35,718 bases of DNA from Gammaproteobacteria bacterium (GTDB taxonomy: Bacteria; Pseudomonadota; Gammaproteobacteria; Pseudomonadales; Azotimanducaceae). The first letter of the stretch is position 1; the number at the start of each line of letters is the position of its first letter. The notes beneath the pieces were generated by a model that saw only the letters and a list, made by a program, of their open reading frames with translations, did not search any database and had not been told where the DNA came from. Of the stretch, positions 74-15,127 are shown piece after piece. Location of the stretch: the NCBI GenBank assembly GCA_009846005.1, contig VXYL01000035.1, positions 1 to 35,718 of the forward strand, written 5' to 3'. Position numbers and translations under genes: made by a program.

Positions 74-1915
74 TTAGCGATCCAACACGATCCGCGTGGC
101 TTTGTCTTCGTCGTACCACCACCCATCGGGAAACGGAGGTCTATAGACCGCCAGATCTTCCCGTTCCGGTCGACCGAATTTGTTCCAATAGACAATGCGA
201 AGGGGTGCAATCGCATCGAGGGGAATCTGGTAGAACCTCCAGAGTAGTACCCTATCCAAGGCGCGGCAGGCGATTGCCATTTCCTCCACGGTCGTCACCT
301 TGACTGCCTTGGCGATCAACGCGTCGACCACGGGATCCGCGATCCCGGCTATGTTGTGACTAAGGGGCTCGGACGCCGATTGAGAATGAAAAAACATGGA
401 CAGGAATACGATCGGCGGTGCGAGGATGTCGCTCCGAATGATCCTCGCGTCGTAGTCGAACTTCCGGTTCAGATTTGCGAACTGCGCGGCCTCCACCAGC
501 CGTATCCTACCGGTGATCCCAAGTAGCTTTAAGGTGCTGAGGTAAGGCAGGAGAGTACGCTGATCTGCGCCATCCACCGACAGGAATTCAATCTCGAAAG
601 GCTCAGCGGCGCTGTTGACCAGCACGCCATCCGCAATATGCCACCCGGCCTGTGCTAGCAGTTCTCGGGCCCGTTCGAGGGAGGCGCGATTGCGGCCGCT
701 GCCGGTGGACTGCGGGAATTCGAGGGCCTGGGTAAACAGCCTTTTGGGCAGTTGATCGCGAAACGGCGCCAGCAACGCAAGCTCACCCTCGCCCGGTAAT
801 CCGCGCGCCTCGAGCGTTGGCTCCCCGGAAAAATTGCTGAGTGCCCGTTCGAGCAGGCCAAAACGAAGTACTCGGTTCTCCCATTCGAAATCCACGGCGA
901 GCGTCAATGCTTCCCGAACCCGCGGGTCCTTGAACCGGTCCCGACGGTTGTTCAGGGCGATGACCCGATTGATACCGATTTCTGAGCGTTCGTCGAGATG
1001 GTCCATCACCAGCCAGCCCCTATCCCGGGCGGGAATGTCATACCCTGTTGCCCAGTAGCGCATATCCCGTTCGATCCAGGTGTCGAACAATCCCTTGCGA
1101 AACGCCTCCCGGGCGACGGTTGCATCCCGATAGACTTCGTGCCGGATCTCATCGAAGTTGAAGCGGCCCTTGTTGACGGGGATGTCTCGTCCCCAGTAGT
1201 CCGGAACCCGTTCGTAACGGATATGCCGACCCTGCCTGACGTTGGCGACCCGGTAGGGACCGCTCCCCAGTGGCGGTTCCAGCGATGCCTGGGTTGGGTC
1301 CCGCCCTTCCCAGTAGTGGGCCGGCATGATGGGAAACCAACTCAAGGGGAAGATGTTGGATACGGTTAGTTCGTTCGCAACCCGCAAGGCTATTTCGCGC
1401 TCGCTTAAGATTTCGACGGATTGCACCCACGAGAGAAATCCGCGAAGCCATATGCTGGATTGAACAAGCTCGAGGGTGAACTTCACATCCCGGGCAGTGA
1501 TCGGCATCCCGTCGTGCCACCGCGCCTCCCGATGCAAGCGAACAAAGAGGGTGCGTTTGTCGTCGGAAACGCTCAGTCCATCTGCCAGTCGGCCATAGAA
1601 GCTGCTCATCTCCTCGGCGCGGTTCGACACCAGGGAGTCGTAGAGCAAACTCACGCCTGGCGCTGCCACTAAGTTGTCCGCGATCAGAGTCAGGGTATTG
1701 AAATCAATCTGTGTCGATTGGACCAGTACGCCCCCCTTGGGCGCATCGGGATTAATGTAGTCGAAATGCGTAAAGTGAGCGGGGTATTTCAGCTCGTGGA
1801 AGAACGAGATGCCGTGTTCGTACTTCGGTTCGGCGGATGCGGTAACCAAAAGCGCCGTAGCGAGGTTCAAGAAAGCGACCCATTGCAGTAGGCGCGAGTT
1901 GGTTGCCATACGCAT
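74..1915 (-). CDS. Periplasmic family-5 solute-binding protein (YejA-like), copy 2
   Basis: This is a periplasmic receptor for an ABC importer, of the SBP_bac_5 peptide/nickel/oligopeptide superfamily, 613 residues and close to the usual YejA-like length. A signal peptide (hydrophobic run around residues 12-26, cleavage after VTASA) is followed by the family's early block HELKYPAHFTHFDYINPDAP and by LPxxGSGPYR-, WxGRDxPVNxGRFNFD- and PFPDGWWYD-type motifs. I placed the start at 1915 because GAGG lies 5 bases upstream; ATG 1909 is the alternative. A longer open frame reaching back into the preceding gene is not supported. It starts 8 bases after the stop of its neighbour, which it matches from end to end, so the two are a tandem duplication. 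No permease or ATPase gene is visible beside them. The ligand is not readable from sequence; a peptide is the default guess. Confidence 0.9.
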   Translation of the reverse strand: MRMATNSRLLQWVAFLNLATALLVTASAEPKYEHGISFFHELKYPAHFTHFDYINPDAPKGGVLVQSTQIDFNTLTLIADNLVAAPGVSLLYDSLVSNRAEEMSSFYGRLADGLSVSDDKRTLFVRLHREARWHDGMPITARDVKFTLELVQSSIWLRGFLSWVQSVEILSEREIALRVANELTVSNIFPLSWFPIMPAHYWEGRDPTQASLEPPLGSGPYRVANVRQGRHIRYERVPDYWGRDIPVNKGRFNFDEIRHEVYRDATVAREAFRKGLFDTWIERDMRYWATGYDIPARDRGWLVMDHLDERSEIGINRVIALNNRRDRFKDPRVREALTLAVDFEWENRVLRFGLLERALSNFSGEPTLEARGLPGEGELALLAPFRDQLPKRLFTQALEFPQSTGSGRNRASLERARELLAQAGWHIADGVLVNSAAEPFEIEFLSVDGADQRTLLPYLSTLKLLGITGRIRLVEAAQFANLNRKFDYDARIIRSDILAPPIVFLSMFFHSQSASEPLSHNIAGIADPVVDALIAKAVKVTTVEEMAIACRALDRVLLWRFYQIPLDAIAPLRIVYWNKFGRPEREDLAVYRPPFPDGWWYDEDKATRIVLDR

Positions 1916-1922
1916 GTGCACC

Positions 1923-3707
1923 TCAATTTGCATTCTCAATGCGATCGGCCTTGACGGGGTCGTACCACCAGCCATCCGGAAACGGCGACAAATACGTCGC
2001 CTCGGCCTCCCGCTGCGGCCGGCCGAACTTGTCCCAGTAGACGAGGTGCGGGTCGTCCACCGCATCCAGCGGGATCTGATAGAAGCTCCACAGTAGCACG
2101 CGGTCGAGGGCTCGACACGCCGCGGCCATCGAGTCAAGCGTCGATGCCGCCTTCGCCGCATCGACCAGGGCGTCGACCGCCGGATGACCGATCCCCGCGT
2201 GGTTGAACGAAAGCGGCGCATCGACCGCTTGGGAATGAAAAGCCAGATGCAGCTCCCAGGGCGGCAACCCGAAGTCGCCGATCCTGATGAATGCGTCGTA
2301 GTCTCGGTTCCGCAGCCGATTGGCGTACTGGGCGCCCTCGACCATCCTGATTCGACTCTCGATACCGAGCGCGGTCAGCGCGTCGACGTAGGGCAACAAC
2401 CTGCGTTGCTCCGCCGGAACGCGCGCCAGAAACTCGATCGTGAAGGGTTCGCCTCCCTCGCCGATGAGGACGCCGTTGCGCATCTGCCACCCTGCCTCCG
2501 CCAAGAGCGCTTGCGCCCGTACTAGACCCGGACGATTGCGCCCGACGCCACTCGTGCGCGGAAATCGAAAGGCCTCGGTGAACACTCGCTCGGGTATCTG
2601 ATCGCGAAAGGGCTCGAGGAGCTCTCGCTCCGACTCGCTCGGCAAGCCCGTGGCGGCAAACACCGAGTTCTGAAAGTAACTGTCGGCGCGGGTCAGGCGA
2701 CCGGTAAACAGCGCACGATTCTGCCACTCGAAATCGAACGCCAGGGACAGGGCTTCCCGCACCTGCGCATCGTCGAAAGGATGGCGGCGGTTGTTCAGGA
2801 TCAACCAGAACCGCGCGCCGATGTCCATCCGGTAACGCCGCTTGCCCTGCACCAGCCAGCCCTTGTCGCGGGCCGGGGTGTCGAAGGCCAGGATGTCGTG
2901 CCCCCACTGCAACCAAACGTCGAGCAGCCCCTTTCGCAGCGCCTCGCGCGCCACCGTCGCGTCGCGGTAGACGTCGTAGAGGATCGTGTCGAAGTTGAAC
3001 CTGCCCCGATTGACGGGAAGGTCGCGGCCCCAATAGTCTGTTACGCGTTCGTAGCGAACGAAGCGGCCTTTCTCGACCGCCGCGATCCGGTACGGACCGC
3101 TGCCCAGGGGCGGCGTGAGGGTCGCGATGGTGGGATCCTTGTCCCCCCAGTAGTGCGCGGGCAGTATGGGAATGTAGTTGGCGAGCGGCGTGAGGCTCAG
3201 GCTGGGATCCGCGATCGTTCGAATCACGAACTCCCGATCGTTGACGATGTCGACCGACTCGAACCACGGCGACGCCATGCGAATGGTCGAGCTGGTGGCG
3301 TCGGCCTTGATGGCGTCGAAGGTGAACTTGACGTCGTTCGATGTGATCGGCATCCCATCGTGCCAACGCGCGCCGGGGTGCAGCCGAAAGACAATCGATC
3401 GGCGATCGGCGCCGAGCGCGATCTGCTCGGCCAGGCTGCCATAGTACGCCGCAGGCTCATCGCCCGCGCGCAGCAGCAAGGTCTCGTAGACCCAGTTCAA
3501 TCCCGGCGCGCGCTGGGGATTCAACAGCGGCGAGAGCGTGCTGAAGTCGGTCATGGAGGGCATGACCAGCGTGCCGCCCTTCGGCGCGTCGGGATTGACG
3601 AACGCGAAATGGCGAAAGTCGGGAGGATATTTCAATTCGTGGAGAATCGACACGCCGTGCCGGAACACGAGCGGCGCTGGATCGGCGTGGCTCGCCGGAC
3701 CCAGCAA
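1923..3707 (-). CDS. Periplasmic family-5 solute-binding protein (YejA-like), copy 1
   Basis: This is the paralogue of the gene at 74-1915, with the same block order: HELKYPPDFRHFAFVNPDAP near the N terminus, GSGPYR, WGRDLPVNRGRFNFD and a PFPDGWWYD end. The first conventional start in frame is TTG at 3707, with no ribosome-binding site. Starting there would leave only LGPASHA of the signal peptide. The codons just upstream in the same frame read VLATLLLLGPASHA, clearly a signal-peptide core, yet no ATG, GTG or TTG precedes it in frame. Either a non-standard start is used or a small indel has separated the start from the leader. The body of the gene is intact. It follows the STN-TonB receptor and probably belongs to its operon. 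The likely role is delivering the receptor's substrate to an inner-membrane ABC transporter. Confidence 0.85.
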   Translation of the reverse strand: MLGPASHADPAPLVFRHGVSILHELKYPPDFRHFAFVNPDAPKGGTLVMPSMTDFSTLSPLLNPQRAPGLNWVYETLLLRAGDEPAAYYGSLAEQIALGADRRSIVFRLHPGARWHDGMPITSNDVKFTFDAIKADATSSTIRMASPWFESVDIVNDREFVIRTIADPSLSLTPLANYIPILPAHYWGDKDPTIATLTPPLGSGPYRIAAVEKGRFVRYERVTDYWGRDLPVNRGRFNFDTILYDVYRDATVAREALRKGLLDVWLQWGHDILAFDTPARDKGWLVQGKRRYRMDIGARFWLILNNRRHPFDDAQVREALSLAFDFEWQNRALFTGRLTRADSYFQNSVFAATGLPSESERELLEPFRDQIPERVFTEAFRFPRTSGVGRNRPGLVRAQALLAEAGWQMRNGVLIGEGGEPFTIEFLARVPAEQRRLLPYVDALTALGIESRIRMVEGAQYANRLRNRDYDAFIRIGDFGLPPWELHLAFHSQAVDAPLSFNHAGIGHPAVDALVDAAKAASTLDSMAAACRALDRVLLWSFYQIPLDAVDDPHLVYWDKFGRPQREAEATYLSPFPDGWWYDPVKADRIENAN

Positions 3708-3745
3708 GAGCAGCGTGGCAAGAACGCAGCTTGCGGATCTCGCCG

Positions 3746-3779
3746 GGGTTACCCCCGCCCGATCGGGTGGAGGTAACCC
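3746..3779. repeat. 34-bp near-perfect palindrome between TonB receptor and binding-protein genes
   Basis: The arms GGGTTACC and GGTAACCC flank a self-complementary centre, CCCGATCGGG. Fifteen of 17 symmetric positions pair, and there is no unpaired loop. It lies 12 bases beyond the receptor stop and covers the region where the binding-protein start should be. It could be an operator for a dimeric regulator, an RNA hairpin limiting read-through, or a small mobile-repeat scar. There is no T-run, so a classical rho-independent terminator is unlikely. Confidence 0.6.
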
Positions 3780-3790
3780 TGGTTCAAAGC

Positions 3791-6775
3791 TCAGAACCGC
3801 GGCTGCCAGCGGACCTGCAGCCCGATCCGCCGCGGATCGGTGAGCGTGCCCATCGTCTGCGACTCGCGGCCTTCGTGGTAGGACACGGGGACGAACTGCA
3901 CGAGGCCGATCTCATCGGTCAGGTTCTGCACGTACGCGGTCACCGACCAGACATCGTCCGCCGACATCCACCTCGCGCGGAGGTCCCAGCGTTCATACGC
4001 CGGCATCTTGTAGAAGTCGAGGTTACCGATATCGGGATAACGCGAACCGGTATAGCTCAAGGTCGAGAGCAACTGCAACCGTCCCCCAGCGGTGAGCGGT
4101 CGCTCGTGCACGAGCGTCAGTGCCGCCTTGTGCGTCGGTTGCATGGGCAGTCGATTGCCGGTCACGTCCTCCGGCGCCGGATAGGGACGAGACATGGGCT
4201 CACCGGCAAGGGTCACGTATTCGTGAATCAGGAAATCGTTGTCCGGATTGCCGCGGATGGCGGCCGAATGCGGGCCGAGACTGGAGTCCTGGAAGTTGTA
4301 GTAGCCGTCCACGCGCCACTGCTCGTTGAGCCGATACTCGGCGCTGAGCTCAAAGCCCGAGAGCTCCGTCCCGTCCACGTTGGCGGTGTACTCGGTATTT
4401 GGGGAGATGTGGTGGGGCTGCAAGAAGCCAGGTGGCACCTCCTGCGTCAAGAGAATCTGGTAGTTCTCGATGTCGCTGTAGTACACGGCCGCCGTTAACC
4501 GCAACCGATCGTCGGCGAATATTCCCTTGACACCCAGTTCATAGTTTATGTTGGTCTCTTCTTCGACGGGATCGGTGGGTACCGGTGGCGTGTTCGGCGA
4601 TCCTTCGTCGTAGTTGAACGAGCCGGCGCGATAGCCGGTGGAGAGGCGGCCATAGAACAGCCTGTTCTCAACCGGCGTGTACTCGACACCGATATGACCG
4701 ATGGTCTTGTCCCAGCTAACCTTTTCACCGGGCTGCAAATGGCCGAACAAATTGGAGATGTCGAAAAAGACCAGTACGGGCACACCGGCAATACCGATGG
4801 TCGTAGACCCATCGAAACCGGGCCTGTCTTTCGTGTCCTTTGAATAACGCAGACCGCCCGACACGAGCCAATGCTCATCGATGCGGTAATCAGCGCTGAT
4901 GAACGCCGCACGGGTTTCCGACGTATGACGCGATAGGAGTTCAAACGCATGGGTGTGATCGCTGCCCGGCGGACAAGTGAAATACAGATCTGGTAGTCTC
5001 GACTCTATCCCCAACCCGAAGAGCTCGAGCATCTCCTGGCACCCGCCGAAGCCCACGGCCTGGGCCGCCTCGTCGGCGTTGAGAAAGCGGAAAGTCGTGC
5101 TGAAACTGTCGATCTCCATGTCCCACGCGTTTTCGACGTCGTAATAAAAGACGCCGCTTACGAAATTAAACGGGCCGTCGAAGTTCGACAACAGCTGCAA
5201 CTCGTGTGAGGTCTCCTCATACGGAAAAAAGTTCTCCTGTCGATCATTTATAAACGGCACCAAGCCGTCGCTCGCCAGGGAAACATCCTGCGCACTACTG
5301 ACTCTGTTCGTATTGTCGTTGTCGCGACTGCTGCTTTGAAGAATATCCGCCAAACCGAAGTTGTAGCGCAGCGTCAAGGTCTCCGTGAGATCGAACATGG
5401 CATAGGCGATTACCGTTTCGCGGTGGCTGTCCTGAATGCCCGGCGCGTTGACATTGGTAATGTTCTTCAACTTGCCGCACTTGAACCCCACCACGTTGGG
5501 CGGACAGTTGGGGTCGATCGACGGCACGGAGCCTTCATAGAGGTACCAGTTGTTGGGATGGCACCCATCGATCAGGGCGGAATACGTCAGCCCGGGGAAT
5601 TCGGCGCACTCGACGTCGCGAACGCGATCCGAAATGGAGATATGGGTGCGCGGTGCACCCGTGTCCTCCACGTAGCCGTAACGGAGGTTCACCTCCAGGC
5701 GATCGGTTTCGAACCTGAGCTGCGGCGAGATGCTGCGTTGATCGGGCTCGTCGTAGTCGCCGCCAAAGCCGATGTTTTCCTGCGCGCCGTCGCCCACGAA
5801 GTAGCCGCCGGTGATGCGGAAGCTAAAGTGATCCGATAGCGGGCCGCCGAAGGCGACGTTGACCCGCTGCGTCATTTGATCGGTGACCTCCGCGATGACC
5901 AGCGCATCCCACTCGTCGGTGGGCTTCTTGGTGTAATAGTTGATAGCGCCGCCAATGGCGTTGCGGCCGAACATCGTCCCCTGGGGCCCACGCAGCACTT
6001 CAATGCGTTCGAGGTCGAACAGGTGCGCGTCCAGACCGTATTCGGCGAAGGTGAATACACCATCGACATAGGTTGCGACGGCTTCGTCGCGCGATATGTC
6101 GACGCCGGCCTTGTCCCCGCCGCGGGCCGTTCCCATGCCGCGCATGGTGGTGCCGTGGCCGAGCCCCTCGGTGGGATCGCCGAACTGCAATCCCGGCACG
6201 AGCTGCTCTAAGTCCATGGCATTCTGGATCCCGAGTTCGTCGATCTTGGTGTCGTTCAGGACGGTCATGCTCATCGGCACGTTGAGGACGTTCTCCTCGC
6301 GCCGTTCGGCGGTGACGATGATCTCCTCGGTGATGCGCGTGGCGGGTTCCTCGGCGTCTTGGGCAAAACCCGGCGACGCGACTAGGACGGCGGCGAGCGT
6401 GGCCCCGATGCGTCGCAGTAGCGGTCTTCTCTCAATCTCAGGTTCTTCCATTGGTCCATCCTCCGTGTTCCCTGGTTCAGCGGTCCCGTCAAGCGAGATC
6501 TGCAGAACCCGTTTGTCGGAGAGGCTGCCTGCAATCCCCGTGCCCCGGAGCAGCGCTTCCACGGCTTGGGTCAAGGTGAAACGCCCAACGACCTCGTTGG
6601 CTTGGCGGCCCTGGGCAAGGTCGTAGGGGAACAGCACGATGGTGTCGGTCTGCTCGGCTAACCGGGTGAGCGTTTCCGCCGCGTCCAACGACGGTATGTC
6701 GATGTCGTAGCGTGGCTCGGCGTTCGTGGCACCCCATGCCCACGAACAGCCCAAGACCAAGATCGCCAGGCGCAT
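3791..6775 (-). CDS. TonB-dependent outer-membrane receptor with N-terminal STN domain
   Basis: This is a FecA-type transducing receptor of 994 residues. The signal peptide MRLAILVLGCSWAWGATNA is followed by an STN domain (about residues 20-95, DIDIPSLDAAETLTRLAEQT ... VLQISLDG), which in this class contacts FecR in the periplasm. Next comes an internal Met109 with its own second signal peptide (RRPLLRRIGATLAAVLVASP, then GFAQ), then a TonB-box-like ITEEIIVTA, the plug (DLERIEVLRGPQGTMFGRNA) and the barrel, ending in the Phe typical of outer-membrane proteins. GTG 6835 is an alternative start; neither has a good ribosome-binding site, whereas internal ATG 6451 has GGAGG 8 bases upstream. It lies 163 bases after fecR, in the order sigma-FecR-receptor. 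The substrate is unknown. The barrel closely resembles the broad class that includes siderophore, vitamin and peptide/glycan receptors. Confidence 0.92.
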   Translation of the reverse strand: MRLAILVLGCSWAWGATNAEPRYDIDIPSLDAAETLTRLAEQTDTIVLFPYDLAQGRQANEVVGRFTLTQAVEALLRGTGIAGSLSDKRVLQISLDGTAEPGNTEDGPMEEPEIERRPLLRRIGATLAAVLVASPGFAQDAEEPATRITEEIIVTAERREENVLNVPMSMTVLNDTKIDELGIQNAMDLEQLVPGLQFGDPTEGLGHGTTMRGMGTARGGDKAGVDISRDEAVATYVDGVFTFAEYGLDAHLFDLERIEVLRGPQGTMFGRNAIGGAINYYTKKPTDEWDALVIAEVTDQMTQRVNVAFGGPLSDHFSFRITGGYFVGDGAQENIGFGGDYDEPDQRSISPQLRFETDRLEVNLRYGYVEDTGAPRTHISISDRVRDVECAEFPGLTYSALIDGCHPNNWYLYEGSVPSIDPNCPPNVVGFKCGKLKNITNVNAPGIQDSHRETVIAYAMFDLTETLTLRYNFGLADILQSSSRDNDNTNRVSSAQDVSLASDGLVPFINDRQENFFPYEETSHELQLLSNFDGPFNFVSGVFYYDVENAWDMEIDSFSTTFRFLNADEAAQAVGFGGCQEMLELFGLGIESRLPDLYFTCPPGSDHTHAFELLSRHTSETRAAFISADYRIDEHWLVSGGLRYSKDTKDRPGFDGSTTIGIAGVPVLVFFDISNLFGHLQPGEKVSWDKTIGHIGVEYTPVENRLFYGRLSTGYRAGSFNYDEGSPNTPPVPTDPVEEETNINYELGVKGIFADDRLRLTAAVYYSDIENYQILLTQEVPPGFLQPHHISPNTEYTANVDGTELSGFELSAEYRLNEQWRVDGYYNFQDSSLGPHSAAIRGNPDNDFLIHEYVTLAGEPMSRPYPAPEDVTGNRLPMQPTHKAALTLVHERPLTAGGRLQLLSTLSYTGSRYPDIGNLDFYKMPAYERWDLRARWMSADDVWSVTAYVQNLTDEIGLVQFVPVSYHEGRESQTMGTLTDPRRIGLQVRWQPRF
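6362..6499 (-). repeat. 138-bp leader repeat, copy A (inside the STN-TonB receptor gene)
   Basis: Read on the minus strand, this block aligns without gaps to 8843-8980 on the plus strand, with about 117 of 138 bases identical by hand count. It encodes the end of the STN domain (ISLDGTAEPGNTEDG), a GGAGG site at 6460-6464, an ATG at 6451 and a full signal peptide. Here the block is in frame with the upstream STN domain. Confidence 0.85.
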
Positions 6776-6938
6776 GGCATCGCCAACCGATGGCCCTCGT
6801 CCCCACCTGCCGGTATTCCCTAGGTACCGTCTCACCTTTCAAACGGCCTCGTCACCTATACGACTATCGGGGGGACGCAACCCGCAACGGGATTGGCATG
6901 GCCTCCGCAAGTGCGATCCGCCACCCGAGCCCCCGCAG

Positions 6939-8048
6939 CTATCTGTCGGCGGTGATCTCGATGCGGTCGTCGCCAATGCGTGTGACCCGCAGGCCGAAGT
7001 TGGTCTCGAGGGCCGCGATCATGCCGTCGGTTTCGCCGACCGCGATGCGCCCACCGATCCGGATGGCTCTTACCTCGGCATCCGGGATATCGACCGTGAC
7101 CGTCGTGTAGCGGCTGATCTCCGCCACCACCTGCTCCAAGGGGTCGCCGGCGAATGTCAACAGCCCGTCCCGCCAGCCAAGCTTCTTCGCGATGTCGAGC
7201 GGCTCGACGGTCCGGATCTCGTCGATCGCACCGGCGTGCTGTCCGGACCGCCAGATCGTTGTCTGCTGCCCCACCTGCAAGGTAGCGAGCACTTGCAGCG
7301 CGTCTACGGCGGGGTCGTGGCTAGGGAGTCCGGGGGGACGCGGGTTGCCGGTCGTCGCGATCTCGACGCTTCCTTCCGTCACCAGCACATCCACGTCGCC
7401 GCCCTTGATGTGGACAGCAAACGCCGTTCCCACCGCTTGGATCCGACTGTTTCCGGCATAGACCCGAAAGGGCCGTTCCCCGTTCGGGGCCACCGTGAAG
7501 TGAGCTTCGCCCGCCTTCAGGCGGATGTCCCGATGGCGCTCTGTGTACTCCACCGACAGCCGGGTGTTGGTGTTCAACCGGGCGATGGAGCCGTCGGCCA
7601 AGGTGATTGTCCGCTGCTCCCCGATGGCGGTTGCATAGGTCCCGTCGCCGCCGATCCCGTTGGCTGCCCGATGGACGCGGGTGTCGGTGCCGGTGGAAGC
7701 GGTGTTGGCGACGAAGACAGCGACCCCCGCGAGCACGGCGGCAGCGGCAACGCCAGCGACCATCGAAACCGGGCCGAGACGGGTACGGGTTCTGTCTGCT
7801 TGTCCGCGCTCCTCCTGTCTGGGCTTGTCCAGCGGAATGGCCAACTCCGTCAAGACGTTCGCCCTGCCCCAGAACTGCGCCAAGCCACGGAGTTGCTTGA
7901 CGTGTGCCGGGCTCCGCGCAAGCCATGCCCTGAGTTCCTCCCGCTCTTCGGCAGAAAGCGCTTCATCGCCGTCGAGCCTGATCAGCCAAGCGCCCGCCTC
8001 CGCCTCGGCAGTGTGCCGGTCCGGGAACTTGAGAAGGGTCGGTTTCAT
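6939..8048 (-). CDS. fecR: FecR-type anti-sigma/transmembrane regulator
   Basis: This is an inner-membrane protein of 369 residues that in FecIRA systems holds or activates its ECF sigma factor and receives the signal from the receptor's STN domain. The cytoplasmic N-terminal part has the pattern of the FecR N-terminal domain (AGAWLIRLDGDEALSAEERE, then LRAWLARSPAHVKQL). One membrane helix follows at about 93-113 (VSMVAGVAAAAVLAGVAVFV). The periplasmic FecR domain comes next (TLADGSIARLNTNTRLSVEY, then GEAHFTVAPNGERPFRVYAG and VGTAFAVHIKGGDVDVLVTE). The C-terminal segment resembles an STN fold, as is usual. Its ATG overlaps the sigma-factor stop as ATGA, indicating translational coupling. The symbol is by family; its partner is inferred from position. 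Confidence 0.93.
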   Translation of the reverse strand: MKPTLLKFPDRHTAEAEAGAWLIRLDGDEALSAEEREELRAWLARSPAHVKQLRGLAQFWGRANVLTELAIPLDKPRQEERGQADRTRTRLGPVSMVAGVAAAAVLAGVAVFVANTASTGTDTRVHRAANGIGGDGTYATAIGEQRTITLADGSIARLNTNTRLSVEYTERHRDIRLKAGEAHFTVAPNGERPFRVYAGNSRIQAVGTAFAVHIKGGDVDVLVTEGSVEIATTGNPRPPGLPSHDPAVDALQVLATLQVGQQTTIWRSGQHAGAIDEIRTVEPLDIAKKLGWRDGLLTFAGDPLEQVVAEISRYTTVTVDIPDAEVRAIRIGGRIAVGETDGMIAALETNFGLRVTRIGDDRIEITADR

Positions 8049-8644
8049 CGTCTACGTTCTTGCCCGACCAAGGATCTCAGCACAGAGGGTGACTTTCGCG
8101 ATGCTCCTTCGCGTCGCTCCACGTATGCCCGGCAGGCAAGCACCCCTTTGAGCATGTATTTCTCCACCGAACTGACAGACAAGGACATTCGCTCCGCGAT
8201 CTCCTTGTGCGTCAGTCCGTAGACCTTGCGCAAGATGTACACCTGCTTGCATTTCTCCGGCAAGTGGGCCACTGCCTCGCAATGCAGGCCCAAGGACTCC
8301 TCGGCTGCAACTTGCTCCTCAAGGGGAGTGTCTCCCTCTAAGACTACGGCCGGCCCCAAATCATCAATCAAATCGGTCATCTGGCGCGATTTCTGGGTCA
8401 GCTTTGTGAGCGCGAGGTTCCTCGCCGACCGGTACAGGTACGCTTCCGGCTGGTCGATCCGCCTGCTCTGCTCGGCGACGTAGGCTCGCAAGTACGCCTC
8501 CTGGGCGATGTCCTCGATGTCCTCTCGTCGGGTTAGGAGACGACCGAGAAAGCTCTTGATCGAGCTGTGGTTCTCGACGAACGCACGCGAGACCCCCGAC
8601 AACGCCTTGCCCTTGCCCGCCCCGCGTTCGATGGACTCCGCCAC
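8045..8644 (-). CDS. fecI: ECF RNA polymerase sigma factor, FecI-like
   Basis: This is an extracytoplasmic-function sigma factor expected to recruit RNA polymerase to the receptor promoters when FecR signals. Region 2 is seen in RAFVENHSSIKSFLGRLLTR, EDIEDIAQEAYLRAYV and YLYRSARNLALTKL. Region 4 is seen in LPEKCKQVYILRKVYGLTHK with the helix-turn-helix EIAERMSLSVSSVEKYMLKG. The frame is open to 8824, but that extension has no sigma-like sequence. I chose GTG 8644, which has GGAGG 5 bases upstream and gives 199 residues, a normal size for the family. The gene overlaps fecR by four bases. It is divergent from the second TonB receptor, so it may control both sides. The symbol is by family only. 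Confidence 0.9.
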   Translation of the reverse strand: MAESIERGAGKGKALSGVSRAFVENHSSIKSFLGRLLTRREDIEDIAQEAYLRAYVAEQSRRIDQPEAYLYRSARNLALTKLTQKSRQMTDLIDDLGPAVVLEGDTPLEEQVAAEESLGLHCEAVAHLPEKCKQVYILRKVYGLTHKEIAERMSLSVSSVEKYMLKGVLACRAYVERREGASRKSPSVLRSLVGQERRR

Positions 8645-8680
8645 GGCAACCTCCGGTGGCCCCTCTCGGACCGTCGGCGT

Positions 8681-8710
8681 AGGATAACGACCGGAGGGCG
8701 GGATCGTCGA
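8681..8710 (-). promoter_or_regulatory. Candidate promoter for the sigma-fecR operon
   Basis: On the minus strand TCGACG (8705-8710) and TATCCT (8681-8686) are 18 bases apart and would place transcription start about 25-30 bases before the GTG at 8644. The match to the sigma-70 consensus is only moderate, and an ECF-type promoter is equally possible. Confidence 0.25.
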
Positions 8711-8842
8711 GGTGGGCTCGCCGGCCTGTGGTTCAGTCGTCGAGCGATTCGCGCTTGCGCGGGGTCTGGTCCCGTCGAGCTCTTGACCGATTCGTGCTCT
8801 AACCGGGTCCAGGTGACAGCACACGCTTGAGGATCTCGCTCG

Positions 8843-8890
8843 ATATCGCTCGATGGGACCGCCGAACTAGGCGATACGGAGGATGGAACA
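8843..8890 (+). pseudogene. Remnant of an STN-domain end upstream of the second TonB receptor
   Basis: Read in the frame of the receptor that starts at 8891, these bases give ISLDGTAELGDTEDGT, matching ISLDGTAEPGNTEDGP at the end of the STN domain of the other receptor. The frame closes at a TGA about 15 bases upstream, and no further STN sequence is recognisable. I infer that the plus-strand receptor gene descends from an STN-bearing ancestor that lost its signalling domain, or that it was copied from the internal leader onward. Confidence 0.6.
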
Positions 8891-8980
8891 ATGGAAGAAT
8901 CTGAGACCGAGAGAAGACCACTACTGCGACGCATCGGGGCAACGCTCGCCGCCGTGCTGGTGGCGTCGTCGGGCTTCGCT
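8843..8980 (+). repeat. 138-bp leader repeat, copy B (start of the plus-strand receptor gene)
   Basis: This is the ungapped counterpart of the minus-strand block 6362-6499. It carries GGAGG at 8878-8882 followed by ATG 8891, the same 8-base spacing as copy A, and the signal peptide of the plus-strand receptor. Differences are mainly single substitutions, many silent. Confidence 0.85.
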
Positions 8981-11650
8981 GCCGACGAGGCGTCGGAGCA
9001 GGACGACGAGGAGATGAGGGAGGAACTCCTCGTCGTGACCGGTACCCGATTGCCTACCGGGCCCGAAGCCTCGCCAATAGTCGTAATCACCCGCCCCGAA
9101 ATGGATGCCCGGGGACTGACGAGCATCGAGGACATCGTTCGCTACCTGCCGCAGAACTTCTCCACGATTACCAACGGGGGCAGTTACGACGGTCGGTCAC
9201 CGCGGTTCCAGATCGGCTCGGTCACGATCAATCTCCGTGGCCTCGGCGAAGGATCCACGCTGGTCCTAGTCAATGGGAAGCGCCTGGCAGCCTCGCCTTC
9301 TGAGCGAGGCACCTTCACCGACGTTTCCACGCTGCCGTTCAGCGCCATCGAGCGGGTGGAAGTGATGACGGACGGTGCCAGCGCCGTGTACGGCTCCGAC
9401 GCCGTCGGAGGGGTGGTCAACTTCATCATGAAGAAGGACTACCGGGGGTCGGAAACGTCGGTACGCTTTGAGAACAGCAGTTCAGGCGGACACCGAAGGG
9501 CCGTCGAGCAGACGTTCGGACTCTCCTGGGGCACCGGCAACGTGACTGCGTCGGCGAGCTATCGCGAGGACGATCCGGTATTTGCGCGCGATGCCGGTCT
9601 CGATACGGACGGGGACTACCGCGAGCAGGGCGGCAGACTCTATCCCAACACCTTCGGACAACCCGGCAATATCCTGCGGTTTGGACTTCCTTCGAACGCG
9701 CCGCCGAATACGACCTATGGGATCCTGCCGCCCGGCGACGGCACCAACTTCAGCCCGGATGACGTCATCTGGGTGTCCAACGAGGAGGTCGCCACCCAGT
9801 CGGGGAACTTCAATCTCCTGCAAAAGGGACTTTCGGCTAACGCCAATGGCGAAGCGATTCCCGCTTCCGAGCACTTGTCTGCCTACCTGAGCGTGACGCA
9901 GGACATCGGGGAGAGTCTCGCGCTGAGCCTGTCCGCAACCTATGCCCGGCAAGACTCCGTTCAGGAGGCCGTGGGCGCATCGTTCAGTGGCTGGGTTCCG
10001 GCAAGCAACTACTACAACCCGTTTGGCGAACGCGTTTACATGGCCTACAGCTTTGGACGTGAAATCGCCGATGGAAAACTCGCGGGTTTCGCAAGGACGA
10101 CCGACTTGGATCGCGTGAACCTAAGCACGTCGGTGACCTGGGAAACGCCACTTGAGGGTTGGACGGCCGTCTTCTCCGCCAACTACGGGAAGGACAATCC
10201 ATACGGCGGCTATCCCGGATCCTTCAACTACAGGGGTGCGGCGTTCCAGGCAGCGCTTGCCAGCAGCGATCCGGCGGAAGCGATCAATCCGTTCGGCGAT
10301 GGCACCGTGCAGCGCGCCACGCTCAACGAGTTCTCGGAATACGCCACGCGGGGAGCGCGGGAGGGTCGTCAGCGTGTCGTTGGCCTAAGCCTTTCCGGCA
10401 CGCTTCTTGAACTTGCCGGGGGGCCCGTCGATTTGGCCGTGGGAACCGAGGTGAGGACTGACACGCTCGACTTCGATTCGTTCCTGTTGAATCCGTTTAC
10501 GTTCCGTGTGCCGGGTGCGCCGGAGATCGTTCCCGAGTCGGAAAACTCGGCCTGGTTTTTCGAACTCTCGGCACCGCTTGTCGGCGACTCGAACTCGCGC
10601 CCGGGCATCCATGGATTGAGGTTGTATGCGGCTGGCCGCTATGACGAATACGAGATCGAAGGGCCGTTCGAGGGCATTCTGGAACCTGCGAGCAACCGAA
10701 CATTCGATGACTTCGTCACCAAGCTCGGCGTGGTGTACTACCCAGCGGAGAGCCTTAAGCTGCGCGCCACATGGGGTCAGGCTTTCTTGGCGGCAACGTT
10801 GCCGGAACTGTTCGGGCCAGTGAACACCTATACTTTCTTCCGGTTTCTTGATCCTCTCAACCCCGTGGAGAACGGCGGGCCGTTCGCGTCGGTTTTTCCC
10901 ACCACCGTTCTTGGCGGAAACCCCGACCTGCAACCCCAGACTTCCGATACCACCACGGTTGGTTTCGAGTTCACTCCAGCCGGAATGTCCGGGCTGTATC
11001 TCTCCGCGACCTATAGCAAGATTGACTTCGAGGGGCTGATCGGGAGCTTGAGTAGCGCCTTTGGGTGGCCGCCGGTGTATGCCTTTGAGAATTGGCAGCA
11101 GTTCCCCGACCAAATCAAGCGCGATGCAAACGGCGTTCTGACGTACCTGTCCCTGCAGAGCATCAACTTGTCCGCCAGGACCAGTGAGGCGCTGGACTTC
11201 GATGTGCGATATGCATTCGACACGCCCAGAGGCGAGTTTGAGGTAGGCATTCTCGGGACCAATACGCTGACGCTGGAAACGGTCTCGGGACCGGGCGTTG
11301 ATGCGGTTGAACAGGAGGGTACGAACCAGGGCCCTGTCGAGCTGAAGGGTAGCGCGTACGTGGACTGGTCACTCGGACCCTGGGGCGCCAACCTGACGAT
11401 CAACCGCGCCGGCAGCTACAAAAACATCAACAACGGCGTATCGCGAACCGATGTGGACGGCTACACGACAGTCGACCTGCAAGGAACCTACGCGCATCCC
11501 GAGTCGCCGTGGCGCGTCACCGCTGGCATGCAGAATGCCCTCGATGCGGATTTCCCCTTCTTCGACGGCTACTACGGTGTGGATTCGGCGCATGTTGATT
11601 TTCGTCGCCGTATCGCCTTCGTCGATTTCGTAATGGAGTTGTCCTGGTAG
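8891..11650 (+). CDS. TonB-dependent outer-membrane receptor without STN domain
   Basis: This is an outer-membrane active transporter of 919 residues, energised by TonB/ExbBD. The start at ATG 8891 is set by GGAGG 8 bases upstream. An unusual acidic n-region (MEESETERRP) precedes the signal peptide core (IGATLAAVLVASSGFA). A TonB-box-like EELLVVTGTR follows, then the plug (TLVLVNGKRLAASPSERGTF, IERVEVMTDGASAVYGSDAV, GGVVNFIMKKDY) and a barrel ending ...FVMELSW with the C-terminal aromatic residue. This plug type is common in large TonB receptors of heterotrophic gammaproteobacteria and unlike that of the neighbouring STN receptor, although the leaders are near-identical. It starts a plus-strand unit with two thioredoxin-fold genes (gaps of 53 and 25 bases). 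The substrate cannot be read from sequence. Confidence 0.93.
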   Translation: MEESETERRPLLRRIGATLAAVLVASSGFAADEASEQDDEEMREELLVVTGTRLPTGPEASPIVVITRPEMDARGLTSIEDIVRYLPQNFSTITNGGSYDGRSPRFQIGSVTINLRGLGEGSTLVLVNGKRLAASPSERGTFTDVSTLPFSAIERVEVMTDGASAVYGSDAVGGVVNFIMKKDYRGSETSVRFENSSSGGHRRAVEQTFGLSWGTGNVTASASYREDDPVFARDAGLDTDGDYREQGGRLYPNTFGQPGNILRFGLPSNAPPNTTYGILPPGDGTNFSPDDVIWVSNEEVATQSGNFNLLQKGLSANANGEAIPASEHLSAYLSVTQDIGESLALSLSATYARQDSVQEAVGASFSGWVPASNYYNPFGERVYMAYSFGREIADGKLAGFARTTDLDRVNLSTSVTWETPLEGWTAVFSANYGKDNPYGGYPGSFNYRGAAFQAALASSDPAEAINPFGDGTVQRATLNEFSEYATRGAREGRQRVVGLSLSGTLLELAGGPVDLAVGTEVRTDTLDFDSFLLNPFTFRVPGAPEIVPESENSAWFFELSAPLVGDSNSRPGIHGLRLYAAGRYDEYEIEGPFEGILEPASNRTFDDFVTKLGVVYYPAESLKLRATWGQAFLAATLPELFGPVNTYTFFRFLDPLNPVENGGPFASVFPTTVLGGNPDLQPQTSDTTTVGFEFTPAGMSGLYLSATYSKIDFEGLIGSLSSAFGWPPVYAFENWQQFPDQIKRDANGVLTYLSLQSINLSARTSEALDFDVRYAFDTPRGEFEVGILGTNTLTLETVSGPGVDAVEQEGTNQGPVELKGSAYVDWSLGPWGANLTINRAGSYKNINNGVSRTDVDGYTTVDLQGTYAHPESPWRVTAGMQNALDADFPFFDGYYGVDSAHVDFRRRIAFVDFVMELSW

Positions 11651-11703
11651 GGGTTTGGTTGGCGGGGGAATCGCCTGTGGAGAAATCACTGGTAGAAGGC
11701 GCC

Positions 11704-12915
11704 GTGTATCGCACGATCATCGCGGGTACTTGCCTGCTTGCGATGATCGGCTGCGCACCGGTCGCGGATGAGGTCGCAGCCGATCAGGCGGTACCCGGGG
11801 CCGGGAGCGGGGCCGCCTACGTAAACGACGCGAACTTCCGGGAAGAGGTGTTCGAGTCGGACTTGCCGGTGCTGGTGGACTTCACCGCCACGTGGTGCGT
11901 GCCCTGCAGGGAAGTGGACCCGATCGTCGACGAACTGGCGTCCGAACTGGCCGGGAAGGCGAAGATCGTCAAGCTCGACATTGACGACTCACCCGAGATC
12001 TACCAAGCGCTTCGCGTCAACGGCGTTCCCACCGTCATCTTCTTTAACGAAGGTTGGGAAGAGGACCGCATAGGTAGCCCGCAGAAGCGGGAGATCTACG
12101 AGCAGTACCTGACCACGATGATCGAAGGCGGGGACATGCTCGATACACGCCTCGAGATGCTGCTACAGGACGACTACCGGCAGCATTTCATCGTCTCGCG
12201 GGAACTGGAGGATATCGAGGCCATCATTCCGCACCGGCCCGATCTCCTGGTCGCGCCCTTTGACGATGGCCGCACGCCGCTTTCGGTGGCGATCAAGCGC
12301 CCGAGCGTCCGCCAGAAAGCGCTGATCGAACTGATCCTGTCGCACGAGCCGAAGATCGCCCTGCACGACCTGATGGGCATCGGCCGCTGCGATGAGTTCC
12401 TGGCGGCGGTGGAGGCTGATCCCGATCTCGCCAACCAGCCCGATCCGGACGGTGCGACGCCGCTCTGGCTGGGGCTGATGGGGAGCGTCAAGGAGCGCGA
12501 CGACCATTGCGCCCGCGCGCTTCTGGACGCGGGCGCACAACCGCTAAGCAGCGCATCGTTCTACTTGCCGAGGGCGGTGATCTTCTACGAGGATCCCGAG
12601 CTTCTGCGGACATTCCTCGACCGAGGCTTGGACCCGGGCGAGACGGACGAACGGGGGATGAATGCGCTGCACATGACCACCATGTACGGCTACTACCCGC
12701 TGGTCGAAGCGTTGTTGGAATACGGCATGGATCCGGCCACGGCGAACGGGAACGGCGAAACCGCCGTGGAAATGGTGCGTAGCCAGCAGCAACGGCGCGA
12801 GGAACTCTGGAACGAGCGCGGGATGCTGGAGACGCCGGAACAGCGGGCGGCATTCCGCGAGTACCAGGAGGAGTCGAACAGGTTGCTGGCGCTTCTCGAA
12901 GGCGCTCAAACCTGA
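11704..12915 (+). CDS. Thioredoxin-ankyrin fusion lipoprotein
   Basis: This is a predicted periplasm-facing lipoprotein of about 403 residues. The signal MYRTIIAGTCLLAMIGC ends in a lipobox-like MIG-Cys. A thioredoxin domain follows (about residues 33-140) with the active site WCVPC in VLVDFTATWCVPCREVDPIV and the cis-Pro motif NGVPTVIFF. The rest resembles degenerate ankyrin repeats: DGRTPLSVAIKRPS, DGATPLWLGLMGS and RGMNALHMTTMYGYYPLVEA, then LLEYGMDPATANGNGETAVE. Ankyrin repeats normally bind proteins, so a docking surface beside a redox centre is likely. I chose GTG 11704 because it gives a compact lipoprotein signal; GTG 11677 and TTG 11659 are alternatives. It sits between a TonB receptor and another thioredoxin-fold protein. 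Confidence 0.82.
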   Translation: MYRTIIAGTCLLAMIGCAPVADEVAADQAVPGAGSGAAYVNDANFREEVFESDLPVLVDFTATWCVPCREVDPIVDELASELAGKAKIVKLDIDDSPEIYQALRVNGVPTVIFFNEGWEEDRIGSPQKREIYEQYLTTMIEGGDMLDTRLEMLLQDDYRQHFIVSRELEDIEAIIPHRPDLLVAPFDDGRTPLSVAIKRPSVRQKALIELILSHEPKIALHDLMGIGRCDEFLAAVEADPDLANQPDPDGATPLWLGLMGSVKERDDHCARALLDAGAQPLSSASFYLPRAVIFYEDPELLRTFLDRGLDPGETDERGMNALHMTTMYGYYPLVEALLEYGMDPATANGNGETAVEMVRSQQQRREELWNERGMLETPEQRAAFREYQEESNRLLALLEGAQT

Positions 12916-12940
12916 TTTTCTTGCGACAGGAGGCAAGCAA

Positions 12941-15127
12941 ATGCTCGCTAGGAAGATAGTCTTCGCCACTCTCGTCATTGCGAGCGGTTGTCTTGCTGCG
13001 ACGCTTCGCGCAGAGGAAGTCGGCAACGACGGACCGTCGAGTAGCGCTGCTGCCGCGGCCGAGGTCAGCTATGCCGAGGGCGAGCGGGCCTATCAGGATC
13101 GGAACCTCGCTGACGCCGTTGCGCATTTCCGGGCCGCAATCGAACTCGATCCCAACAACACCAAAGCGCATCAGCAGTTCATCCGGGCGTCTCAGGATCT
13201 CGGCAGATCGGAAATCAGCGCCGAACTGGATGAAGACGCGCGCGATGTGGCAATGAAGGCTGCCGGCGATGAGTCCTTTGAGAGCCTGCTCGCCGTCTAC
13301 CAGGAGTGGTCACAGGATTTCTCAGAAGTCGCAGCCTACAAGTGGGCGCTTGGCGAGCTCTACATGTATCGGGATTATGACAAGGTCAGGCAGTACACGA
13401 ACGAGGCGATCGCCCTGGATCCGGGCCTTGCCGACGGCTACAGCACCTTGGCGCTCATCGCCGATGTGAGCGGAGACAACGAGCGGGAACTGGAATTCTT
13501 GAGGAAAGCGGTCGAGACGGCGCCGGAGAGTCCCGACAAAGCGTTCTACTACGCGGCAACATTGAACAAGACCGATCCGGTGTCGGGGCGAATTGCGTCC
13601 CTTGAAGTCGCCGAACGGTTTCCCGAGAGCGAGCGCGGCGCGCAGGCGCTGTATTGGCTCGCGTATCGAACAGAGGACCGCGACGAACAAATCGCACTGT
13701 ATGAGCGGCTGCGCACGACCTATGCCCCCGAAGACTTCAGCTGGTCCGCGTCCGGAATGACCTTGCTGGCAGACCTGTACTCCGAGTCCCACCCGGAAAA
13801 GGCCCTCGCCCTTGCCGAGCAGATGGTTGCGGCGACGGCCGAAGAACCGGATGGCTGGAGCGCAGGAATCTGGAACGACCGACTGACGTACCAGCGAAAC
13901 GTGACGAAGGGCAACGAACTGATCGCCGACGGCCAGTATCAGCAGGCCGTGGAGTTGCTGGAGGGCACAACGATCCCACGTTACGTCAACTCCAATGTCT
14001 TCCATGAGACCAAGGCCAAGGCGCTGGACGGGGCCGGTCAGACCGTTGAAGCCTATGAGTACCTGCTTCGGCAGGCGGCGAAGGAGCCGACAGACAGGGT
14101 CTGGGCGGCGACGCTTGTCTACGCCAAGAAACTCGGAAAGGACGACAACACAACAAGGGCTGAGATCAGGGATGCGCTGGAAGAGGAGGCGGAGCAAATC
14201 GAGGACTATTCCTTCGAGCGCTACGACAATGGCGAGCAGGTGTCACTGTCGGATTTCAAGGGCAAGGTCGTACTATTGAACTTCTGGTACCCGTTCTGCG
14301 GGCCATGCCGGGGCGAAAACCCCGAGCTCCAGAAGGTCCTGGAGAAGTACGGCCCCAAGGGGTTCGAGATTCTTGCGCTCAACGTACACCCGGAAGAAGA
14401 TCAGTTCGTCATGCCCTACGCCAACGGCAACGGATTCGATTTCATCCAGCTCCGAAGCGATATGGAGTTTGCGAAAGCCGAGTTCCAGGCCCGCGGTATG
14501 CCAACGAATTTCCTCCTGGACGTGGAAGGGCGCAAAGTCCTAAGACTCCCGCCGATCTCGGGAACGAGGGTCAGGACGCTGGAACTGCAGATTGAATCGC
14601 TGCTGCCCGAGATGAGCGCGGCAAGCGTGGGCGGTTCGGACGTTGTTGTACCGGATTCGGCGCGGGCGGACGATGCAGAACCCCCGCTTGCCCGCGTGAT
14701 CGGCTCGGCCGACCCCAAGGAGTTGCCGGCCGGTGGAGAGGCTCTCCTGAAGATCGAGTTGGACCTCGCGCCCGGCACGCACGCAAACTCCGACTCGCCG
14801 ACGGACCCCGCGTTGATTCCGACGACGTTTTTCCCCGATTCGGTTGACGGCGTCGTGTGGGAACAGGTGAGCTATCCGCAACCGACCGAGGTGATCGAGT
14901 GGTACTCCGTAGACCCGCTGCCGGTCTTTGAGGATGGTGCCGTGATACGGGCTCGCCTGACTGTCGAAGAAGATGCCGCACCCGGAGAGCTTGACCTATC
15001 GGGCCAACTGCGAATCCAGGTGTGTGACGCCGACTCCTGCTATCCGCCCGAGCGGGTACCCATCGCGGTTGCCGTTACCGTGATTGGCCCGGCTTTGGGG
15101 CGCTCAGACACACGAGGCATGCCGTAG
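12941..15127 (+). CDS. Periplasmic TPR-TlpA-DsbD alpha-like fusion protein
   Basis: This is a 728-residue predicted periplasmic thiol-redox protein. An AGGAGG site precedes ATG 12941, and the signal peptide is ARKIVFATLVIASGCLAATL. Residues about 40-380 form TPR-like helices (SYAEGERAYQDRNLADAVAH, FRAAIELDPNN and others). Residues about 410-560 are a TlpA/ResA-type thioredoxin domain with active site CGPC in LNFWYPFCGPCRGENPEL and cis-Pro RGMPTNFLL. Residues about 585-715 resemble the DsbD N-terminal (alpha) domain, including the paired cysteines of QVCDADSCYPPERVP. A DsbD-type membrane domain is absent, so electrons would come from elsewhere. TlpA plus a DsbD-alpha-like domain in one chain suggests relay of electrons to a substrate held by the TPR part; this is inference. 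Its TAG stop lies inside a REP-like GTAG head. Confidence 0.85.
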   Translation: MLARKIVFATLVIASGCLAATLRAEEVGNDGPSSSAAAAAEVSYAEGERAYQDRNLADAVAHFRAAIELDPNNTKAHQQFIRASQDLGRSEISAELDEDARDVAMKAAGDESFESLLAVYQEWSQDFSEVAAYKWALGELYMYRDYDKVRQYTNEAIALDPGLADGYSTLALIADVSGDNERELEFLRKAVETAPESPDKAFYYAATLNKTDPVSGRIASLEVAERFPESERGAQALYWLAYRTEDRDEQIALYERLRTTYAPEDFSWSASGMTLLADLYSESHPEKALALAEQMVAATAEEPDGWSAGIWNDRLTYQRNVTKGNELIADGQYQQAVELLEGTTIPRYVNSNVFHETKAKALDGAGQTVEAYEYLLRQAAKEPTDRVWAATLVYAKKLGKDDNTTRAEIRDALEEEAEQIEDYSFERYDNGEQVSLSDFKGKVVLLNFWYPFCGPCRGENPELQKVLEKYGPKGFEILALNVHPEEDQFVMPYANGNGFDFIQLRSDMEFAKAEFQARGMPTNFLLDVEGRKVLRLPPISGTRVRTLELQIESLLPEMSAASVGGSDVVVPDSARADDAEPPLARVIGSADPKELPAGGEALLKIELDLAPGTHANSDSPTDPALIPTTFFPDSVDGVVWEQVSYPQPTEVIEWYSVDPLPVFEDGAVIRARLTVEEDAAPGELDLSGQLRIQVCDADSCYPPERVPIAVAVTVIGPALGRSDTRGMP

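Follow-up and report, generated by a model that had tools for sequence, protein, structure and literature searches.

The window, the whole stretch of 35,718 nucleotides that was analysed, contains a locus made of two divergent arms, listed in Table 1. In the left arm, a FecI-type ECF sigma gene adjoins a FecR-type anti-sigma gene, and these are accompanied by a receptor with an STN signalling domain and by two binding proteins; the right arm is composed of a second receptor, a thioredoxin-ankyrin protein (P0008) and a TPR-TlpA-DsbD_N protein (P0009).

Table 1. Features of the locus, in coordinates of the window
Feature	Coordinates	Strand	Remarks
SBP_bac_5 protein b	74..1909	-	ORF 74..2221; true start probably near 1909
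SBP_bac_5 protein a, YejA/MbnE-like	1923..3707	-	Pfam and solved relatives
Receptor 1, long form: SP1-STN-linker-internal leader-plug-barrel	3791..6835	-
First signal peptide (SP1) of receptor 1, MRLAILVLGCSWAWGATNA	6719..6775	-	seen in sequence
STN signalling domain of receptor 1	6488..6712	-	Pfam (below cut-off) and local profile
Internal Shine-Dalgarno GGAGG, receptor 1	6460..6464	-	8 nt before internal ATG; dG -9.5
Predicted short form of receptor 1, from internal ATG (6451)	3791..6451	-	putative product
Internal leader (second signal peptide), MEEPEIERRPLLRRIGATLAAVLVASPGFA	6362..6451	-	cleavage expected before Q
Leader repeat copy 1, inverted	6363..6500	-	86% identical to copy 2
FecR-type anti-sigma factor	6939..8048	-
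FecI-type ECF sigma factor	8045..8824	-	true start uncertain within ORF
Leader repeat copy 2: 5' UTR derived from STN coding sequence, and receptor-2 signal peptide	8842..8979	+
Shine-Dalgarno GGAGG, receptor 2	8878..8882	+	spacing as at internal start of receptor 1
Receptor 2 (BARREL2), no STN	8891..11650	+
Thioredoxin-ankyrin lipoprotein (P0008)	11659..12915	+	lipobox LLAMIGC seen in sequence
TPR-TlpA-DsbD_N protein (P0009)	12941..15127	+

Domain scans with Pfam and NCBIfam bear out the gene identities of the original prediction. FecR scores 81.6 bits, and regions 4 and 2 of the ECF sigma factor score 50.9 and 42.8; SBP_bac_5 is found in both binding proteins (168.4 and 190.3 bits), plug and barrel in both TonB receptors, thioredoxin and ankyrin in P0008, and redoxin and TPR in P0009. 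The DsbD-alpha-like tail that had been proposed for P0009 is confirmed as PF11412 (DsbD_N, 26.1 bits for a cut-off of 25), a domain that is absent from the Pfam scan of the whole protein and surfaced only when the C-terminal 159 amino acids were scanned alone. The near-identical leaders of the two receptors are also real: they are inverted copies that agree in 118 of 138 bp.

The STN of receptor 1 falls under the Pfam cut-off (21.6 vs 28.4), reaches E = 1.4e-29 against a local STN profile, itself containing the receptor-1 sequence, and in its region weakly matches solved FpvA and the signalling domain of PupB. On this evidence receptor 1 carries an N-terminal STN, as expected of a FecIRA system, and the left arm resembles FecIRA, FoxA-FoxR-FoxI and FpvA: sigma factor, FecR-type anti-sigma factor and STN-bearing TonB receptor, in order. 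Methanobactin uptake in Methylosinus also uses an ECF sigma factor, a FecR-type sensor and an STN receptor, as described in excerpts of PMC3621798. The parts of the left arm correspond in kind to those of the MbnI-MbnR-MbnT-MbnE system, an MbnE-related binding protein included, but, in this comparison of uptake parts alone, binding protein a is closer to 7z8e and YejA (8fss), both with E about 1e-107, than to MbnE (5icq, 1.4e-85).

Between its STN and its plug, receptor 1 has a further ATG in frame (6451), together with a Shine-Dalgarno (SD) sequence and a complete signal peptide. To our knowledge, FecA, FoxA and FpvA have no such internal leader, and we found no description of a receptor gene with such an internal start and leader in the literature searched.

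A hydrophobic internal leader is present in 59 of 137 non-redundant STN receptors among the matches listed, a ratio that is not a frequency in nature, because the sample was drawn from chosen loci among these matches. The query that gave the first set of receptors contained the leader, which biases this set towards leader-bearing genes; the later searches relied on a profile of the STN alone (A3), in which 23 of the 30 rows are leader-type. No more than 30 loci were read in each search, together with 60 and 20 regions chosen among the matches listed, and the receptors were made non-redundant at a string similarity of 0.65. The leader was defined by a cut of 1.7 on mean hydrophobicity, a crude substitute for a signal-peptide predictor; the cut was chosen after the data were seen, and values between 1.5 and 1.7 exist. 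The frame continues into a recognised plug in 203 of 247 STN ORFs, and the 44 others were left out. The possibility that STN and receptor are two genes, separated by a stop between STN and leader, was rejected: of 31 unjoined STN ORFs, three are followed by a plug in a different frame, two of them at a short distance and looking like frameshifts (L123, 173 nt; L226, 110 nt) and the third at 603 nt (L175). Among the remaining unjoined ORFs are some at contig ends or in cut regions, some with other plug types and some from other proteins, and the stop in G048 lies 3' of the leader, near a contig end.

Where the 78 non-leader receptors have a plain linker, the leader class has a start, an SD and a signal peptide. 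The 59 leader-class receptors divide into 40 with ATG and SD, 11 with GTG and SD (dG <= -5), 6 with ATG and a weak SD (L095, L143, L154, L165, L186, L250) and 2 with no start (L170, L251): a start with a good SD is thus present in 51 of 59, with the long frame open, and missing in 8. Eight of the receptors have no ATG in the start stretch, and each carries a GTG with an SD; of the 12 Val codons in that stretch of these eight, 11 are GTG, a share to which genome-wide Val codon usage may contribute. In L118, L147 and L234, a GTG with SD stands beside an ATG without a good one. In the first set, the n-region of the internal leader is net positive in 51 of 55 receptors, and the first signal peptide is hydrophobic in 53 of 55. 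The best SD at the long-form start, whose position is uncertain, is weaker than the internal one (mean -4.42 vs -7.24), the internal one being stronger in 39 of 52. Presence of the leader follows the STN tree, with 11 changes against a mean of 44.4 when shuffled, and fecR and fecI lie upstream in all 24 of the 59 leader-class receptors that have enough flank.

The duplex energy with the anti-SD, computed on those 55 receptors of the first set, out of 56, that have a start, averages -7.2 kcal/mol at the internal start versus -4.7 in 300 synonymous codon shuffles (range -5.56 to -3.94), the best ATG or GTG being chosen in real and shuffled sequences alike. For 327 single ATGs that lie in frame at other places in these ORFs, the mean is -2.14, and energies of -5.5 or less are reached by 48 of 55 internal starts versus 12%. 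Taken individually, only 11 of 55 receptors are significant at 0.05 in the shuffle test; the -4.7 of the shuffled sequences shows that the Glu/Gly-rich linker itself contributes to the SD, and an ATG or GTG at -5.5 or less occurs in 7 of 55 non-leader linkers as well. When the ATG nearest the hydrophobic core is taken, ignoring the SD, 38 of 49 in the leader class attain this value; in the control, the 78 non-leader receptors, it is attained by 2 of the 17 ATG-containing linkers. With this choice of ATG, codon -4 is GAG in 13 of 14 cases of Glu (7.3 expected) and GGG or GGA in 16 of 16 cases of Gly (5.5 expected); when the start with the best SD is chosen instead, the counts are 18 of 20 and 20 of 20. 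The RNA is less structured at the internal start than at control codons in 54 of 57 receptors, and mid-linker codons of the 78 non-leader receptors have no such trend (32 of 78). This low structure is partly explained by composition, because the start region is AT-richer (GC 0.418 vs 0.52 elsewhere). For the set as a whole, the in-frame internal start and its SD are conserved and stronger than codon use predicts, with 8 of 59 lacking a good start; genuine initiation is indicated by codon choice, exchange of start codons and the weak structure of the RNA.

An SD-like sequence that sits between two domains might also act as a translational pause, aiding export or folding, with an incidental start codon. 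We give this hardly any credit, as a pause would call for neither the start codon found at canonical spacing in 51 of 59 receptors nor the signal peptide downstream of it. Another reading is historical: an STN would have been fused upstream of a complete receptor gene, whose old start and signal peptide survive as a neutral or tolerated linker. The architecture resembles such an addition, L122 has an STN and leader before a receptor with a different N-terminal region, and the eight receptors without a good start could be in decay. However, a relic should decay, and here SD, start and low structure are kept in diverged receptors despite differing linker residues, sometimes with GTG for ATG, which makes this account very improbable.

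We come to the reading that we consider likely on the sequence data: a FecIR signalling locus in which translation of the receptor gene can also start internally, yielding a signalling form with STN and a transport form without. The first start would give the long form, running from signal peptide 1 through STN, linker and a second signal-peptide-like segment to plug and barrel, and the internal ATG, with its own SD, a short form that opens with signal peptide 2 and would mature to a receptor without STN. Both products are presumably made, and a single mRNA would then encode a transducer able to engage FecR and a pure transporter unable to, so that uptake capacity would not be tied to the amount of STN holding FecR. 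The STN exported from the first start would contact FecR, by analogy with FecIRA. The chain of the long form would have to pass a second signal peptide after export of the STN: either the STN would stay attached, or signal peptidase would cut at the second leader and free it.

This last step could by itself account for the leader, if the long form alone were made and the leader were a signal-peptidase I site, cut after export into a free STN and a mature receptor. An A followed by Q or E after the hydrophobic core, in 51 of 55 internal leaders, agrees with this, loose as the motif is, and so does a proposal in excerpts of PMC11637429 (2024): that the signalling domain of FoxA in P. aeruginosa is cleaved by a periplasmic protease, probably CtpA, and protects FoxR; such cleavage would also explain how the STN reaches the anti-sigma factor across the periplasm. 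The outcome, a receptor without STN, is the same; the agent there is a protease, whereas in the window the separation would be written into the gene. We find cleavage alone unlikely, as a cleavage site requires no SD at -12 to -9, no equivalence of ATG and GTG, and no unstructured start region, but cleavage and internal initiation may act together. It is tempting to conjecture, tentatively, that a mainly gammaproteobacterial class of receptors is built in two parts: between STN and plug, internal initiation together with a signal-peptidase site would produce a free or separately tethered STN guarding FecR at the inner membrane and an STN-free transporter, and the signal would cross the periplasm without a permanent covalent bridge.

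Bacterial genes with internal starts are known, such as those of CheA (long and short) and IF2 (alpha and beta), where one frame with two starts gives two proteins. Receptor 1 would share the single frame, the two starts and the two predicted proteins; unlike these genes, its internal start bears its own export signal and would strip the signalling domain from an outer-membrane receptor. Models of cell-surface signalling treat the receptor as one chain with STN and barrel. An internal start would provide, within one gene, a built-in means of uncoupling transport from signalling and, being conserved with its export signal, a genetic route to separation of the STN, a question directly testable by mutation of the start codon. 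The STN-free product may escape annotation.

We now turn to the relatives of the locus. P0008 has matches beyond its thioredoxin domain in six genomes outside the window genome, and adjoins a BARREL2-type receptor in five (G003, G005, G010, G012, G021); in the sixth, G008, the match has 32% identity and the receptor match is on a different contig. In G012, receptor 2 and P0008, at 46-59% identity, are separated by a 1.36-kb gap, and no STN was found within the stretch examined. P0009 occurs in 6 of 117 genomes, window genome counted. The expectation that thioredoxin-fold genes are kept beside the receptor thus holds for receptor 2, and the divergent arm (receptor 2 and the two thioredoxin-fold proteins) is best explained, judging from gene order, as a conserved uptake module. 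Elsewhere (G000:C38, G010:C134), binding proteins again accompany STN receptors of the BARREL1-like type; G010 has FecIR, STN, BARREL2 and thioredoxin genes in one locus, and the 19.9 kb examined there contain no SBP match. The anatomy of one divergent locus, as originally described, is real, but its two arms separate in relatives, and a joint function for all genes is not supported. The proposal also had a single ligand, disulfide-containing or peptide, being imported and reduced by both arms under common FecIR control. Receptor 2, P0008 and P0009 are indeed conserved together, and a YejA/MbnE-type binding protein and TlpA-type and DsbD_N domains are present; against it, the arms come apart in relatives, and no promoter element common to both was seen when alignments of the fecR-STN gap and the region upstream of receptor 2 were read by eye. 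We find this joint import somewhat unlikely, a probability counted separately from those of the readings of the internal start, with which it is compatible; a disulfide-containing or peptide ligand remains a possible candidate.

The FecIR-STN cassette is joined to BARREL2 in G010, G002 and G005, and to BARREL1 in the window and G003: the arm that carries the signalling domain has therefore changed. The leader repeat indicates where. Receptor 2 begins at the ATG that matches the internal ATG of receptor 1, as it does, also without STN, in G003, and the identity extends 49 bp upstream of this ATG, over bases that are STN coding sequence in receptor 1. Judging by this alignment, the 5' UTR of receptor 2 once coded for STN. 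Inverting FecI-FecR-STN converts the arrangement of the window into that of G010, and the leader is, on the same comparative grounds, the joint where the cassette was inverted onto another receptor. In the window lineage, this inversion would have removed the STN front end from the receptor-2 arm, and the leader would serve as a swap point for FecIR-STN cassettes between receptors. A switchable or programmed inversion, with near-identical inverted repeats, was discarded: a fixed past inversion is preferred because identity between the two copies is only 86% in the window and 84% in G003. Between the window and G003, copy 1 is 96% identical and copy 2 only 84%. Copy 2 has also diverged faster than its own flank, which is 94% identical between the two.

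Between the STN domain and the plug of receptor 1 lies a leader, that is, an internal signal peptide with its own putative start and Shine-Dalgarno (SD) sequence: downstream of STN and inside the frame comes the DNA acacGGAGGatggaccaATG, and then MEEPEIERRPLLRRIGATLAAVLVASPGFA and Q. The homologous ATG, preceded by an identical SD, is where receptor 2 starts. The 49 bp upstream of this ATG are recognisable as the tail of an STN domain (GSRSISLDGTAELGDTEDGT against VLQISLDGTAEPGNTEDGP), and no start codon was found upstream of it in the receptor-2 frame: the ATG is thus the sole plausible start of that gene. The window is the complete contig C84 of a draft genome of 4.96 Mb, which has 11 FecR and 10 STN matches. 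Domain searches bore out the gene identities named in the original prediction, including the DsbD_N tail of P0009 (26.1 bits against a cut-off of 25).

Positions of the features of the locus in the window
Feature	Position	Strand	Remark
Receptor 1	3791..6835	-	BARREL1, with STN
Leader copy 1	6363-6500	-	Internal ATG at 6451
Block around GTGACGAGGCCGTTTGA	6836-6938		Upstream of the start of the long, STN-bearing form; well conserved across five genomes; possibly regulatory
Sigma ORF	8045-8824		About 75 residues precede region 2; true start probably downstream of the ORF start
Leader copy 2	8842-8979	+	
Receptor 2	8891..11650	+	BARREL2, without STN
P0008	11659..12915	+	Thioredoxin-ankyrin lipoprotein
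P0009	12941..15127	+	TPR-TlpA-DsbD_N protein

STN receptors were collected from relatives (117 genomes), from the order (293), class (369) and phylum (398), and from 24 named loci, with a first query that included the leader and subsequent queries made of STN only. By hydrophobicity the linkers form two broad groups, values of about 1.5-1.8 being few, and 59 of the 137 non-redundant receptors have an internal leader while 78 have none. The leader class divides into 40 cases with ATG and SD, 11 with GTG and SD, 6 with ATG and a weak SD (L095, L143, L154, L165, L186, L250), and 2 with no start (L170, L251). GTG with SD accompanies a poor ATG in 3 receptors and replaces an absent one in 8 others, which suggests that the conserved feature may be the start codon and not methionine.

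An earlier test set held 111 receptors, 56 of them leader-class, the controls being synonymous codon shuffles and in-frame ATGs at other places in the ORFs concerned. In the larger set of 137, the ATG nearest the core was taken blind to SD, avoiding the bias of selecting the best SD. Both tests favour a real internal start. Codon choice at position -4 points the same way, and so does RNA structure: the RNA is more weakly structured there than at control codons in 54 of 57 cases, with a mean z of 1.43 against -0.24 in the 78 non-leader linkers, a weakness to which low GC at the internal start (0.418 against 0.52) contributes. Among the open-licence papers listed by literature searches, judged by titles, abstract openings and selected passages, none described an STN receptor with an internal start or signal peptide, nor did six passages of PMC9249621 found by a term search.

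The simplest reading is that receptor 1 would give two products, an STN-bearing transducer and a transporter without STN. The leader also introduces a motif for signal peptidase ahead of the plug, so that cleavage of the long form at this point may yield a free STN and the same mature receptor.

Presence of the leader tracks the STN tree, with 11 changes against a shuffled mean of 44.4 and minimum of 36. Both fecR and fecI are located upstream in all 24 leader-class cases that allowed the test, and in 7 of 8 without a leader. A hydrophobic signal peptide 1 is present in 53 of 55. Counted by reading the survey results, 12 families within the window's order include leader cases. Beyond the order, the leader was seen in three families of the class (f185, f189, f206) and, outside the class, in a single genome from a different one (G1050, receptor L274). 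Family f21 has plain linkers only, among its receptors read. By record title, carriers include Woeseiaceae, Porticoccaceae and one Bryobacterales MAG (L110), which may be misbinned; no leader was found in the Alteromonadaceae (L127) or Colwellia (L128) records.

In genomes G010, G002 and G005, the order is FecI-FecR-STN-leader-BARREL2, all co-directional, followed by thioredoxin-ankyrin and TPR-TlpA genes in G010 and by thioredoxin-ankyrin in G005; the G002 contig stops just inside BARREL2. The window and G003 have FecI-FecR-STN-leader-BARREL1-SBP (SBP_bac_5 binding protein) on one strand and leader-BARREL2 on the divergent one. The FecIR-STN cassette has thus been inverted between the two groups. 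Inverted leader copies stand at both junctions, 86% identical in the window and 84% in G003. Copy 1 is closer to its G003 orthologue (96%) than to copy 2, which is not so for copy 2: its identity with G003 (L066) is 84%, and that of the receptor-2 sequence after it 94%. SBPs again adjoin BARREL1-like STN receptors at G000:C38 and G010:C134. The order TonB receptor without STN, FecI, FecR, STN receptor is repeated in L092, L067 and L097 (G000:C38, G010:C134, G002:C462), with an SBP after the STN receptor in the first two.

The original prediction would have been refuted had the thioredoxin-fold genes not been conserved beside the receptor; they are conserved, but beside receptor 2 only. P0008 has matches in 25 of 117 genomes; the match extends beyond thioredoxin in six besides the window genome, the rest being to the thioredoxin domain only, and in five of these six P0008 adjoins a BARREL2-type receptor. 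In G008 (32%), P0008 and receptor matches lie on different contigs. P0009 is present in 6 of 117 genomes, counting the window genome. G021, which belongs to a different genus within the family, carries BARREL2 together with thioredoxin-ankyrin and TPR-TlpA (85-90% identity), with a distant FecR (32%) and STN upstream of this module.

The left arm has parts like those of the methanobactin uptake system MbnI-R-T-E, as described in passages of PMC3621798, the MbnE likeness coming from comparison of the SBP tested, which is YejA/MbnE-like. For its cargo, one may reasonably guess a peptide or a metallophore derived from one. In the right arm, the nearest solved structure to the plug is BtuB, and the presence of a TlpA/ResA-type domain and DsbD_N suggests, by inference only, reduction of cargo or partner proteins in the periplasm.

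The BARREL2 match of G005 (L098, L032) is in several pieces and its P0009 has an internal TAG; the region looks damaged or misassembled. A BARREL2 receptor without STN (L298, G012) has tandem GRDRMGEIGWERSD repeats in frame before its leader. In L175, a 200-aa ORF ends in an STN-like domain, possibly a split STN or the tail of a FecR, and a plug lies 603 nt downstream in another frame. The STN and receptor frames of L123 are out of register within the leader, probably through a frameshift or sequence error. In L122 (Woeseiaceae), STN and leader stand before a receptor whose N-terminal region is of another kind (TTVVTGSVTDARTGANLKGARV..., by eye carboxypeptidase-regulatory-like), an architecture suggesting that STN was captured repeatedly.
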